This document shows, in pieces, positions 3,001 to 62,505 of a stretch of 64,000 bases of DNA. The notes below the pieces were generated by a model, which had not been told where the DNA came from, searched no databases, and saw only the letters and a program-made list of their open reading frames with translations. The position numbers were made by a program, and so were the translations under genes. Origin of the DNA: a virus; IMG/VR virus record IMGVR_UViG_3300023176_001394, positions 1 through 64,000 of that record; one strand, given 5' to 3'. Each line of letters starts with the position of its first letter. The first letter of the stretch is position 1.

Positions 3001-6000
3001 TTTACGGACAGATGATAGATTTTGATGATAGCTCTACAATATTATTTGGTTCTAATATTAAAGTTTCAAACAATCACATTTATGCAGGTATGCCATTAGT
3101 TGAATATTCTGCAAACACGGCAGGTACAGTTGTTGATTTTTATAAACAGAAAGATATTTGGTCAGTATTAAGACAAAGTAAACCTACTGTCGATGTAAAC
3201 AAAATAAAACGTGTTATGTTATATAATACTTTGGACAACGAAATAATACAATATTTAGATTATGTCGATGTATTACAAGGTAAAATTCCAGGACCTGCAG
3301 AACAAGAACTATCTTATAAAACGTATTATGATCCAGCAACTTATACAGTTGGAACAGGTGTAAATGTAGATACTACAAATAGTTGGGGCGAGATCCAAGT
3401 AGGTAAATTATGGTGGGATTTAACAACTGCTAAATTTATTAATCCTTATCAGTCTGATGTAATCTTTAGTGCAAACAATTGGAACAAAAAGTATTCAAAT
3501 ACTAATTCCATTAATGTTTACGAATGGGTAAAATCAACAGTACTACCTGAAGAATGGGATAAGCAAGCAGGAACTGAACGCGGAGCATCTAAAGGTATAA
3601 GCGGAAAAAGCAAATACGGAAATAATGCTTATGTTACTAAGCAAGTTTATGATAAAGCAAGTAAAACATTTACAACATATTATTATTTCTGGGTAGGACA
3701 AAAGACAACAGTACCTAATATAGAGGATAGAACTTTAAGTGCTAATAGTATTGCACAACTAATAGAAGATCCTGCTGGACAAGGATATAGATTTGTTAGC
3801 TTTATTAGTCCTACACAGTTTGCTCTTTTTAATTGTGAATCGTTAATTAGAGGCAACGAAGTTGCTATAAGTGTACAATATTGGACAATAGAAGATCAAG
3901 ATATTAATATACATAATCAGTATCAAGTTATATCTGATGGATTAGAAACAAGCAAACCTAACAGAGATATTGAACAAAAATGGTTTGACAGTTTAATAGG
4001 TTGGGATCTTGCAGATAGGCCTGTACCTGCTCCGGAATTAAGTATAAAAGAGCGTTATGGTATTTTAAATAGACCTAGACAAACTTGGTTTGTCAATAGA
4101 GTAGAAGCTCTAAAAGAAGTAGTAAACAGAATAAACAGTGTTCTTTTAGATAACTTAATAGTCGATGATAAAAATCTTAACAGGCTAACTGAGAAAGAAG
4201 CAGAGCCTAGTGTTGCAAGTAGACTCTTTGACACAACAGTAGACACCGTAACTGAATTACAGTTTGTAGGTGTGTCTAAAGCTAACCAAGCATCGCTAAC
4301 TCCTGTTGTAGAAAATGGCGAAATTGTAAGAGTAGAAATAAATCAACCAGGTAGAGGTTATTTACAAGCACCAACAGTAGAAGTATTTGGCACAGGACAA
4401 AATGCTGTTATAGAAACCGTTATAGATAGTAACGGAAAAATAACAGACACAAATATTATTAATGCTGGAGAAAATTACAATAGTTCAAATACATCTATTT
4501 CAGTAAGAAGATTTACAGTCTTAGTCAAATCAGATTCAACTGTAAACGGTAGATGGGCATTGTATGAAAGAGATACTACTACTGATGAATGGATTAGAGT
4601 AGCAAGTCAAAGTTATGATGTTAATCAATACTGGCAATATGTAGATTGGTACGAAGATGGTTATAGTCAATTTACAGAAATAAATCAATCTATAGACTTT
4701 GCTTACGAACTACAAGGCTTAGACAATGAAATAGGTGATATTGTAAAAATTCAATCTGTAGGCACAGGCGGATGGTTACTTCTAGAAAAAATTGATAACC
4801 AAACCGGTGTCGACTACACTATAAATTATCAAACAGTTGGCAGACAAAATGGTACAATCCAGTTGTCAGATACTTTATATGATGTGTCAAAAAATTTAGT
4901 AGGCTATGATACAACTACATTTGATACATTAACATTTGACGGTCAGCCAAGCGTAGAATTAAGAATTGTTCTAGAAGCAATTAGAGATGATATTTTTGTT
5001 GATGATTTAGCACTTGAATATAATAAATTGTTTTTCTCAAGTTTACGTTATGTTTTTGCAGAGCAAAATTATGTAGATTGGGCATTTAAAACATCATTTA
5101 TAAAAGCACAGCATAACGTAGGAGAATTAGATCAAAAAATTAATTTCCAAAACGATAATTTGCCTAGTTACGAAAAATATATTAAAGAAGTAAAACCATA
5201 TAAGACTAAAATTAGAGAATATTTAAGTAGTTACGAAAAAATAGATAATTCTCAGTCAATGACTACAGATTTTGACTTGCCTCCTTTATATATAGAAGGT
5301 ACTGACAATATTATTACAAGAACTGTAAAAGTAATTGATGATAATTTAGTTTCACAAGAAGGACCAATTACAACATATCCTGATAAGCATTGGGCGGATA
5401 ATGCAGGTTATAGTATTAAAGAAATAGCAGTTGCTGATCCTGGGTCTGGTTATGTTACTACACCTGTTGTAACTGTCACCGGCGGCGGCGGCACCGGAGC
5501 AATAGCAAAAGCCTCGCTTGGTAGAGGAGGCACGATTACTTCTATACAGATAGTTACAGAAGGATCAGGTTATCTTAGCATGCCAACAGTATCTATAGAC
5601 GGAACTATAGCAGACGGAGGTCGTAGTGCAAAGGCTGTAGCAATTCTAGGCGGAAGTCCAGTAAGGTCGATGAATACTGTAGTAAAATTTGACAGGGTAT
5701 CAGGAGAGTTTGAATTTATTAACCTATCTACAACAGAAAATTTTGTAGCAACAGGTAGTAAAGTATTCTTCAATTTACTATGGCCAATGGATTTACGTAC
5801 AACTAAAGTTACAGTATCTATTGATAACACAGAAGTGTTAGCAGGAAATTATGCATACAAAAATATTTTAGATACTTCTAAAGGTTATGATAGATATTAT
5901 GGTCAAATTGAATTTATAGATCCTCCAGCTGACGAGGCGCAAATAAAAATAGAATATCATAAAGATATTTCTTTGTTAAATGCTCAGGATAGAATTAACA

Positions 6001-49818: not shown

Positions 49819-50442
49819 TGGATTTGGTTTAAAATCCATCCAAGCACCTACATTAAATCCCATAACAATTCTATTTTCTTTACTCATATTACTTCTAACA
49901 TGATGTCTCATCCATCCTGGAAACATTGCTAACTTACCTGTTTTTACTTTAATTGTTTCAGTATATAGATAAGGCTTGTACATAAAATCATATGGCATTT
50001 TTCCTTTAACCATTTCTAAAGGATCTTCAAGGAAAAGATTACCCATATCTTCGTCTGCATCAACATAAAAAACACCGCCAACTGGTACAGGGTTATGATT
50101 ATGAGCTGGTGTAAATCCTCCTGGAGGAACATCGTTAGCCCATAATTGCATAACATATGGTTCTATTCTTTGAGTATAATTACATGCTTTCCAATATTCT
50201 TTTGCATGGAAATTTACAAAATCTGTAATTGGTTTAAGTTCTTCTCTTTCATGTAAGTTTGGTTCAGTTCTAGCAAAAATAGGATTCCCATCTTTATCAA
50301 AATAATCATTGCCTGTAGCAATATTGTTCTTAAATAAAGGCATTAATTTTTCTTTTATTTCGTTTCTAATTAAGTCAAAGTCTTCAAATTCTGCTTCGTA
50401 TATTAAAGTTGGAAATATTTCTTTTACTACTCCTGATTTCAT
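49810..50442 (-). CDS. 2OG-Fe(II) oxygenase-type phage protein, paralogue
   Basis: 210 residues. GGFTPAHNHNPVPVGGVFYV and KLAMFPGWMRHHVRSNMS, then ENRIVMGFNVG, align with the protein on the other strand, including the His-x-His pair, the distal His and the Arg. An IFPTLIYEAEF start is common in this family. Start overlaps the methyltransferase stop (TAATG). The presence of two paralogues in convergent orientation suggests either different substrates or a recent duplication with inversion. Confidence 0.72.
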   Translation of the reverse strand: MKSGVVKEIFPTLIYEAEFEDFDLIRNEIKEKLMPLFKNNIATGNDYFDKDGNPIFARTEPNLHEREELKPITDFVNFHAKEYWKACNYTQRIEPYVMQLWANDVPPGGFTPAHNHNPVPVGGVFYVDADEDMGNLFLEDPLEMVKGKMPYDFMYKPYLYTETIKVKTGKLAMFPGWMRHHVRSNMSKENRIVMGFNVGAWMDFKPNPLG

Positions 50443-51221
50443 TACTTACACCTTTTCCATATTGCACTATATCCGCTAACCATACGTTCGCCATCTTCAG
50501 TTTTCATGTTATCTACATGCTTAGGTATATTATTAAATTCTATTGTTGATACAGGATCGGATTTCATTGCTTCTGATATCTCGCCCATGACATCCTCATT
50601 CGGAATTAGTCTAACATCGACTGCGAATGTCCCGCCAATTTTTAGATGATCTAAAGTTTTTTGCCAGTATGTTTCTTTAGGATAATGCCAACACCAAGAC
50701 AGATAGCTAGTTACAGCATCTACTTCATCCGGCCATTCCTCTTCGGGACCTTGCATTTTAAATCTGCTAGGGTCTATATCAGAAGTATTAATGCAGTCAA
50801 CAACCGGAGCCCAACTATTATATTCAGGATAATCTTTTTGGTAAAAAATTCCAGGCTTAAACTCAAAACCTTCTTTGTCAACAAGTGTAAAGGTTGATTG
50901 AGGCAAGTATTTTGCTAACAGTAAGTCTTGTACAGCAATACCGCTACCTACATCTACAATTTTTGCATCGTCTTGTAAATTGTATAGTCCTTGACTGTCG
51001 CGCCTGTCCCAAAACATTTGATACCATTTAGGAAAATATTCATAAAATAATTGTAGTGTTGATTCTTGTCCTCTAATATACAATCCTGCTTGAATATTAC
51101 TCCAGCGAGCCAATTCATTAACATCAGACCAAGATAAATTAACAGGACCTTTACTTGTTTTTATTTCTAAATTATAACGTAGCCAATTTTTTGTATAAAG
51201 ATCCATGTCTTCAAGCGGCAT
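50442..51221 (-). CDS. SAM-dependent methyltransferase-like protein
   Basis: 259 residues. KIVDVGSGIAVQDLLLAKYL is the SAM-binding glycine loop and FTLVDKEGFEF places the acidic residue after strand two. DAVTSYLSWCWHYP holds the usual position of the catalytic/motif IV strand. The N-terminal ~90 residues are helical (SWSDVNELARWSNIQ). Start at 51221 has AAGGAG upstream and a late box further upstream, so it is probably expressed late with the oxygenase gene that follows. Substrate unknown. Confidence 0.7.
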   Translation of the reverse strand: MPLEDMDLYTKNWLRYNLEIKTSKGPVNLSWSDVNELARWSNIQAGLYIRGQESTLQLFYEYFPKWYQMFWDRRDSQGLYNLQDDAKIVDVGSGIAVQDLLLAKYLPQSTFTLVDKEGFEFKPGIFYQKDYPEYNSWAPVVDCINTSDIDPSRFKMQGPEEEWPDEVDAVTSYLSWCWHYPKETYWQKTLDHLKIGGTFAVDVRLIPNEDVMGEISEAMKSDPVSTIEFNNIPKHVDNMKTEDGERMVSGYSAIWKRCK

Positions 51222-51242: not shown

Positions 51243-51250
51243 TATTTATG
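51243..51250 (-). promoter_or_regulatory. T4-type late promoter box CATAAATA (minus strand)
   Basis: On the minus strand CATAAATA precedes the methyltransferase start at 51221 by about 21 bases. It forms a divergent pair with the plus-strand box at 51281-51288 in the 92-base gap. Confidence 0.6.
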
Positions 51251-51313: not shown

Positions 51314-52027
51314 ATGTCAGACTTTGTAAGATCAGCTAGAAAATCAGAACTTAACATAAAGTCCTTAGACTGGACTGATGGTAAGATAAATGAATACTAT
51401 GGAGGTTTTGCTACAGATCTAGCAACTAAAGTTGCTTTTGAAAGAGTAAGCACAGGTTATATAGCCGCTACGCCTGGTAGAATTAATTTAGTGCAAATTA
51501 CAACAGGCGATAGATATGTATATCAAACAACAAACGGTCCTACATGGGAAGCATATACAAAACTATACAATACTTTTTCTTCTGATAATGTAAAACTAGA
51601 AAATCCTTTATACAGAGATACAAGCACTAGCAAAGAGTATTTAGAAATAAGAACTCCTAACAGAGAAATAGGACTTTCAATATCTGCTAAGATGTCAAAA
51701 GAGTCAACATTGGGTAAAGATGTATATGAAACTTATCTATTAGGATGGATAGATGCTGTTGCAGAAATATTACCTATTGTAAAGCCAATAGCTCAAGAAT
51801 ACAATATAGGACTACCAAAGGCATTATTTTATCCAGGAAACTACCTAAAAGATTCAAGTAGTAGTTATTTTACTAATTTAGAAACAGATTGGAATGTTTC
51901 ATTAACAAGTTTTTATGCAGACACAATGTCAGCGTTCCTGGAAAAATTAAAAAGTAATGTTAGTCATACGTTGCCAATAGGTAACATAGAAACTCTAGAA
52001 CAACGTGCGAGGTCAACATGGACTTAG
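51314..52027 (+). CDS. Unknown late protein (237 aa)
   Basis: 237 residues behind a late promoter. The N-terminus SDFVRSARKSELNIKSLDWTD is followed by strand-rich and then helical segments. The last 40 residues are helical (SVSHTLPIG-like spacing with NIETLEQRARSTW). No enzyme motif is recognised. Late expression and its two-gene unit suggest a virion or assembly protein, but it lies apart from the main structural block. It overlaps the next small gene by 10 bases. Confidence 0.55.
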   Translation: MSDFVRSARKSELNIKSLDWTDGKINEYYGGFATDLATKVAFERVSTGYIAATPGRINLVQITTGDRYVYQTTNGPTWEAYTKLYNTFSSDNVKLENPLYRDTSTSKEYLEIRTPNREIGLSISAKMSKESTLGKDVYETYLLGWIDAVAEILPIVKPIAQEYNIGLPKALFYPGNYLKDSSSSYFTNLETDWNVSLTSFYADTMSAFLEKLKSNVSHTLPIGNIETLEQRARSTWT

Positions 52028-56217: not shown

Positions 56218-56246
56218 ATTATAACTATATTTACATAGTTTGTCAA
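56218..56246 (-). promoter_or_regulatory. Consensus sigma70-type promoter for the VWA gene
   Basis: On the minus strand TTGACA (56241-56246) and TATAAT (56218-56223) are 17 bases apart, both perfect. An inverted repeat AACTAT/ATAGTT lies in the spacer (56223-56228 and 56235-56240), a possible operator. Confidence 0.8.
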
Positions 56247-57411: not shown

Positions 57412-57425
57412 ACTATATATATAGT
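57412..57425. repeat. 14-base palindrome at the -10 region
   Basis: ACTATATATATAGT is its own reverse complement and overlaps the -10 box of the promoter at 57423-57450. The ends ACTAT/ATAGT recur in the spacer of the promoter at 56218-56246. It could be an operator; a simple AT-rich coincidence is not excluded. Confidence 0.45.
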
Positions 57426-57450
57426 ATACACTCTACACGCTAAATGTCAA
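57423..57450 (-). promoter_or_regulatory. Sigma70-type promoter for the MoxR-type gene
   Basis: On the minus strand TTGACA (57445-57450) and TATACT (57423-57428) are 16 bases apart with GTG directly before the -10 box. The leader to the ATG at 57374 is about 42 bases. Confidence 0.75.
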
Positions 57451-57856: not shown

Positions 57857-58146
57857 TAGTCAAGTGAAACCTTCTCTCCCTGGGTAAGTTTTACAACCGA
57901 GAAGTCTTGACAATTAAATAAGTCATTAAGTTTTTTTGCTAAATTGACAGCATGCCCCGGATTGCTAAAACTAACCTTTTTATACTTAGGCCCCGGATAG
58001 TTAGTTAGCATATTTGCTGACTTTAGATTAAAAGGAGCATCATTATAAAACACAGCCCAAATGGCTTCTGCTTTTAATATTTGCTCACTTTTATAAGTCT
58101 TTTTATCGACGTGTTCGATTATCACGTCTGGTTTTGGTCTGCTCAT
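57856..58146 (-). CDS. Conserved marine-phage protein (96 aa) with hairpin leader
   Basis: 96 residues. AIWAVFYNDAPFNLKSANML, NYPGPKYKKVSFSNPGHAVN and a LAKKLNDLF helix occur in related marine phages, as far as I recall. The protein role is unknown. Its leader is remarkable: a late box lies at 58177-58184 and a 10-base perfect inverted repeat at 58145-58177 brackets the ribosome site AAGGA. Read-through RNA can fold it, whereas late RNA starting near 58171 cannot. The stop overlaps the next start (TAATG). Confidence 0.68.
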   Translation of the reverse strand: MSRPKPDVIIEHVDKKTYKSEQILKAEAIWAVFYNDAPFNLKSANMLTNYPGPKYKKVSFSNPGHAVNLAKKLNDLFNCQDFSVVKLTQGEKVSLD

Positions 58147-58177
58147 ATGCGTATCGTCCTTAATTATATACGCATAT
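58145..58177 (-). repeat. 10-bp inverted repeat around the ribosome-binding site
   Basis: ATATGCGTAT (58145-58154) and ATACGCATAT (58168-58177) pair perfectly with a 13-base loop (58155-58167) that contains AAGGA on the minus strand. The start codon at 58146-58144 is partly in the stem. The distal arm overlaps the late promoter box, so only transcripts from upstream contain both arms. Confidence 0.78.
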
Positions 58178-58184
58178 ATTTATC
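58177..58184 (-). promoter_or_regulatory. T4-type late promoter box GATAAATA
   Basis: GATAAATA on the minus strand is about 30 bases upstream of the ATG at 58146. The expected start site is near 58171, inside the distal arm of the adjacent hairpin. Confidence 0.68.
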
Positions 58185-62453: not shown

Positions 62454-62485
62454 GTGTATACTGCACAATTATATACAGTATACAC
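62454..62485. repeat. 10-bp inverted repeat over the folE promoter
   Basis: GTGTATACTG (62454-62463) and CAGTATACAC (62476-62485) are perfect inverted arms with a 12-base centre. The distal arm covers the -10 box of the folE promoter; the other arm lies in the early leader. It may be an operator, or a hairpin formed only in read-through RNA. Confidence 0.7.
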
Positions 62486-62505
62486 TTATTTAGGTTTTTT
62501 GTCAA
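62477..62505 (-). promoter_or_regulatory. Sigma70-type promoter of the folE operon
   Basis: On the minus strand TTGACA (62500-62505) and TATACT (62477-62482) are 17 bases apart with GTG before the -10 box. The leader to the folE ATG at 62421 is about 50 bases. Confidence 0.8.

Follow-up and report, generated by a model that had tools for sequence, protein, structure and literature searches.

A T4-Type Late Promoter within a Start-Codon Hairpin Probably Confines Translation of a Conserved Jumbo-Phage Protein to the Late Phase

Results and Discussion

The window analysed here comprises 64,000 nucleotides of a 66,087-base IMG/VR virus record, which is itself a fragment. In gene content it is similar to jumbo phages, with an exonuclease, an AAA ATPase, QueE and GTP cyclohydrolase, and the DNA and protein matches of the record lead to phages of the PA5oct, Atu_ph07, Phosso, SCTP-2 and GAP32 type. 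The gene under study lies on the minus strand at 58146–57856 and encodes a conserved protein of 96 aa, with homologues in the jumbo phages PA5oct, Atu_ph07, Phosso and SCTP-2 (41–63 % identity in the named phages). Pfam and PHROG searches with the protein gave no match. Its AlphaFold2 model is confident (pLDDT 91.5); a PDB fold search with this model returned no match at E≤0.001, and a viral fold search retrieved only uncharacterised proteins that give no function.

Upstream of the 96-aa gene runs a series of minus-strand genes that overlap or nearly touch, from GTP cyclohydrolase and QueE to the exonuclease and an 81-aa gene. At the head of this run, 4.3 kb upstream, we found a sigma-70-like promoter (TTGACA-17-TATACT, minus strand, 62505–62477), which is likely the source of read-through RNA into the 96-aa gene. 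No terminator-like site was found on the minus strand between 54000 and 64000, nor did a terminator search of the 100 nt upstream of the gene find any in 194 homologous loci. A perfect 10-bp inverted repeat, GTGTATACTG/CAGTATACAC, spans the −10 box of the sigma-70-like promoter (62454–62485, minus strand) and may be an operator or a leader hairpin. On the downstream side, a 128-aa gene (57856–57470, minus strand) overlaps the 96-aa gene by one base and is likely carried on the same late RNA. Near-perfect sigma-70-like promoters are also present on the minus strand at 57423–57450 (TTGACA-16-TATACT) and 56218–56246 (TTGACA-17-TATAAT). They stand immediately ahead of the AAA ATPase and VWA genes, so that the surroundings of the 96-aa gene look early-type. 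The T4 genes controlled in this way are late genes whose polycistronic RNA carries early and middle products as well (PMC2988022), a pattern which the setting of the 96-aa gene fits.

The start of the 96-aa gene is preceded by a T4-type late promoter box, GATAAATA (58184–58177; all positions in this paragraph refer to the minus strand), the last base of which is also the first base of the distal, 5′ arm of a hairpin. Direct reading, folding and covariation define this arm, AUAUGCGUAU, at 58177–58168. It is followed by a loop of 13 nt in the fold, AUAAUUAAGGACG (58167–58155), within which the Shine-Dalgarno sequence AAGGA can be read at 58161–58157, and by the 3′ arm AUACGCAUAU (58154–58145; reading, folding and alignment), the last two bases of which are the first two of the start codon at 58146–58144. 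The stem consists of ten Watson-Crick pairs (58177–58168 with 58154–58145) and is closed by a terminal wobble, U58178·G58144, so that in the folded read-through RNA the AUG is paired and lies wholly in the stem base. The 50-nt element has a minimum free energy of −10.5 kcal/mol (z −3.15). An earlier note on this DNA had described a perfect 10-bp hairpin presenting the ribosome site and the start codon region, and this observation is confirmed by direct reading and folding. Its concern that silencing could be weaker with the ribosome site in the loop is answered by the paired start codon, and T4 soc, when folded here, likewise has its Shine-Dalgarno sequence in or near the loop. In T4, the 8-bp late box occupies −13 to −6, a distance of roughly one helical turn from the start (PMC2988020). 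This spacing places the predicted 5′ end of the late transcript near 58171 (±1–2 nt), inside the 5′ arm, and RNA begun there would retain at most about four of the ten pairs.

By T4-type late promoter we mean an 8-bp box resembling TATAAATA that needs no −35 element; in this phage the box is GATAAATA, enriched and near start codons, and the transcript start is predicted. In the full T4 type, a gp55-family sigma encoded by the phage, the gp33 co-activator and activation by the gp45 clamp go with such a box. Upstream of genes in the window phage and ten relatives, NATAAATA is the most enriched motif, at about 20-fold. In an unbiased 8-mer count over the upstream regions of 1,158 genes from these 11 genomes, ATAAATAC and GATAAATA rank first. 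GATAAATA precedes 51 genes where 1.96 would be expected, and the next kind of motif consists of sigma-70 −35 words of the TTGAC type near −52. All five copies of GATAAATA in the window lie 8–60 nt upstream of a start codon. In two large relatives the motif shows a strand bias of 16:2 and 1:18, and the reversed control pattern is rare there. Exact TATAAATA was rejected as the sole box, with three sites in the record against nine for the reversed control; the box used here is NATAAATA. Some relatives carry box variants with GC at −13/−12, which have also been described for Aeh1. Elsewhere in the window, two divergent ATAAATA late-type promoters lie about 30 bp apart, at 51249 (minus strand) and 51281 (plus strand), and serve the genes at 50442–51221 and 51314–52027.

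A TAAATA box precedes the 96-aa gene in 192 of 194 distinct homologous loci. The other two, L262 and L276, have none within 100 nt and begin with GTG after GAGGAG, the late promoter seemingly having been lost. A late sigma factor of the gp55 family is encoded in 12 of 15 relatives' records, including PA5oct, Atu_ph07, Phosso and SCTP-2; none was found in the 66-kb record of the window, which is a fragment, and we infer that the window phage itself has one. ATAAATA late-type promoters together with a gp55-like sigma have been described for CBB, and the motif also for GAP32 (PMC5259590). Motif enrichment, the near-universal box and the sigma factor of the relatives support the late promoter that the earlier note had placed at the hairpin.

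Five scans of viral contigs supplied 194 distinct loci of the gene with 144 distinct leaders. Covariation was assessed on 124 leaders sharing the window's layout, with the register chosen blind to the central pair. This central stem pair is G-C in 86, A-U in 27 and G·U in 8 leaders. On the gene tree, 11 co-changes occur among 15 changes in arm 1 and 20 in arm 2 over 246 branches (Fisher 5e-11, with related loci counted as independent as in our other p-values), and slid, mis-registered controls give none or one. Two further pairs are compensated, a neighbouring C-G that becomes U-A and another A-U that becomes G-C. A count on 30 rows finds three pairs changed on both sides, with a covariation score of 0.156 versus 0.090 for shuffled rows (0 of 500 as high). 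When the 5′ arm was swapped for one from another pair class, the computed lock weakened in 111 of the 124 leaders. The combination of one loop with either a G-C or an A-U stem is seen for four loop sequences and speaks against the exchange of entire leaders as the sole process, in favour of point compensation. The gene tree is weakly supported, with stars on 41 of its 188 inner branches, and, the arms being linked, tree error can inflate the co-change counts, leaving the number of independent events uncertain; the strongly supported branches alone, in an earlier and mis-assigned parse of the arms, yielded two to three independent pairs, a number that does not allow a sign test. Several independent compensatory events are nevertheless likely from the sequences, given three different pairs, the shared loops and the other layouts described below.

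To open the start site in the window costs 15.1 kcal/mol in read-through and 1.9 kcal/mol in late RNA, and the probability that the AUG is paired is 0.87 and 0.06, respectively, by folding that largely ignores salt, temperature and translational coupling. Median opening costs over all homologous loci are 10.8 (read-through) and 4.2 kcal/mol (late), whereas 105 further late-promoter genes from the same genomes have 5.1 and 3.2 kcal/mol (p 7e-25, the related loci not being independent). Among the late-promoter genes of the window, the 96-aa gene ranks first in this contrast. All late values assume the T4 start: the opening cost drops sharply for RNA begun at the fifth base past the box or beyond, and a start within the first two or three bases past it would keep most of the hairpin.

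Not all lineages use the hairpin of the window. A second group carries GATAAATACTCATAT closely followed by ATATGAGTA, the 5′ arm pairing directly with the start codon. In other loci the 5′ arm lies upstream of the box, as GCUCAU pairing with AUGAGC in L014, L017, L028 and L076, as CUAC-CAUAAUAU pairing with AUAUUAUG-GUAG in L317, and as UACUCAUA pairing with UAUGAGUA in L030; with these arrangements the late RNA folds as almost unstructured. Outside the two main forms, 17 of 36 leaders from viral contigs are individually significant against shuffles, and the contrast in Atu_ph07 amounts to 8.6 kcal/mol (p 0.049). These lineages seem, as far as can be judged from their leaders, to lock the same AUG by different pairings, in every case through a 5′ arm that precedes the predicted late start. 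This suggests that the lock was re-invented with unrelated pairings, the functional logic being kept while the hairpin was replaced several times. No contrast between read-through and late RNA is seen in a subclade with the box CATAAATA (e.g. L047 and L061), in L045, L058 and L323, or in SCTP-2. The sequence CATAAATA stands upstream of the gene in L047, L055, L061, L065, L069 and L074, and some members of this subclade have a further strong hairpin, GTGGTG..CACCAC, some 40 nt ahead of the box.

On the T4 spacing, the late RNA of some lineages would be almost leaderless, for example in L036 (GATAAATACTCATATTATATGAG), L317 and L320, with a leader of about 4–5 nt and no Shine-Dalgarno sequence. 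Several lineages may therefore combine a locked read-through RNA with a near-leaderless late RNA, so that the choice of promoter also changes the mode of initiation and the start codon has been re-locked several times with unrelated pairings; we put this forward tentatively, as somewhat short of an even chance. Two further sites were noted along the way. GATAAATATACTTGTAACTGTTAAGGAATAAGTATG in L086 (G006:C1, about 3052–3090) precedes a 356-aa gene, which is possibly a second gene with its late promoter in a start-site hairpin. In PA5oct (L114), a long palindrome, AAAAACCCTGTATA/TATACAGGGTTTTT, lies about 80–105 nt upstream of the gene at 4001 and upstream of the late promoter; it looks terminator-like by eye, was not called by the scan, and could replace the hairpin there.

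Three other readings of the locus have to be weighed. An AT-rich promoter beside an AT-rich leader might self-complement by accident and have no role, and the stem by itself is indeed unremarkable: the AT-rich window holds three perfect stems of at least 10 bp with loops of 3–20 nt, and its shuffles a mean of 2.1, so that the stem alone proves nothing. Its register with box and start codon, the opening contrast and the conservation go beyond chance. In 200 shuffles of the leader and its upstream sequence, none matched the gap in opening cost that separates read-through from late RNA (p 0.005, z 4.6); stems of at least 8 bp occur in 75 % of the distinct leaders and in 6 % of shuffled ones, the contrast exceeds that of the 105 other late-promoter genes, and the compensatory changes in the arms already contradict an accident, which we consider extremely unlikely.

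The repeat overlaps the promoter, and a dimeric protein could bind the palindrome as a DNA operator and control transcription, the RNA hairpin being a by-product; at T4 I-TevI, operator and hairpin even occur together at one late promoter (PMC2988022). The span between the arms, which varies from 6 to 21 nt among relatives, would be hard for a dimer to accommodate, drift in the arms is compensated, and the unrelated sequences of other lineages share just one result, the pairing of the start codon. An operator as the sole explanation is thus very unlikely. Nor does it seem probable, if by a hair less remote, that transcription always starts further upstream and that the hairpin, present in every message, senses temperature, is switched by a protein or ligand or serves autoregulation. 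Such a role would suit a transcript start that is predicted only and a conserved protein of no assigned function; it sits poorly with a box whose position with respect to the 5′ arm does not vary and which is the phage's enriched promoter motif, with loop and stem sequences that lack the conservation expected of a binding site, with other lineages in which the topology with respect to the late start is all that is retained, and with an Rfam search of the window that gave no match.

We therefore favour, as quite probable on the comparative sequence evidence, a hairpin gated by promoter choice, in which read-through RNA is locked, late RNA is open and the protein is made only late. The 96-aa gene would be a late gene inside a transcription unit of early or middle type. 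Read-through RNA, probably from the promoter at 62505–62477, would contain both arms; the stem would pair the AUG and confine the Shine-Dalgarno sequence to the loop, giving weak 30S binding. In the late phase, a gp55-type sigma would direct the host RNA polymerase to GATAAATA at 58184–58177, and the resulting RNA, starting near 58171 with at most about four of ten pairs left, would be translated. Start site, timing and strength of silencing are inferred.

The mechanism itself is already known from T4 (e, soc, 49, I-TevI). The lysozyme gene e is a late gene on early read-through RNA with a start-site hairpin and a T4-type late promoter within the 5′ arm, the arrangement predicted for the window gene, and our script computes a drop in opening cost from 16.0 to 2.2 kcal/mol for e and from 15.1 to 1.9 for the window. 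Unlike the window gene, e has its Shine-Dalgarno sequence in the stem and two late promoters (PMC3014915); gene, phage family and hairpin sequence differ, and the T4 switch has been tested, whereas that of the window is predicted from sequence. With soc, as folded here, the window shares a start codon in the stem and a Shine-Dalgarno sequence in or near the loop. The soc gene differs in encoding a capsid decoration protein and in having its hairpin near two late-like boxes, and its contrast is small (8.4/6.5), the simple script having taken the nearer box. The late promoters of T4 I-TevI, I-TevII and 49 and of Aeh1 mobE are placed in such a way that the 5′ arm is missing from late RNA (PMC2988022), as predicted for the window, with opening costs of 14.7/5.4 for I-TevI, 15.5/2.7 for I-TevII and 18.5/4.2 for 49; these genes encode homing endonucleases or endonuclease VII, unlike the gene of the window, and I-TevI has an additional protein operator. 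In CBB and GAP32, ATAAATA promoters of the same motif precede structural genes and go with a gp55-like sigma, and hairpin control of translation is not mentioned in the part of that report used here (PMC5259590).

The earlier note had recognised the logic of T4 e, soc and 49 at this locus. Similar computed contrasts support this for e and 49, and soc shares the layout; its reading of the hairpin draws further strength from the covariation of the arms, from the unrelated pairings in other lineages and from a contrast like that of the T4 cases. Its interpretation is thus well supported by comparison.

Conclusion

New here, on comparison of sequences, are the phage group, mostly marine jumbo phages outside the T4 family, the evidence from covariation, the apparent re-invention of the lock and the predicted near-leaderless late messages. 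Jumbo phages with T4-type late promoters would thereby join the T4 family in using a textbook control, with support from covariation instead of from one single sequence, and leaderless late messages could be put to the test in some lineages. The uncharacterised and widespread 96-aa protein is then something that these phages seem to need switched off until late.
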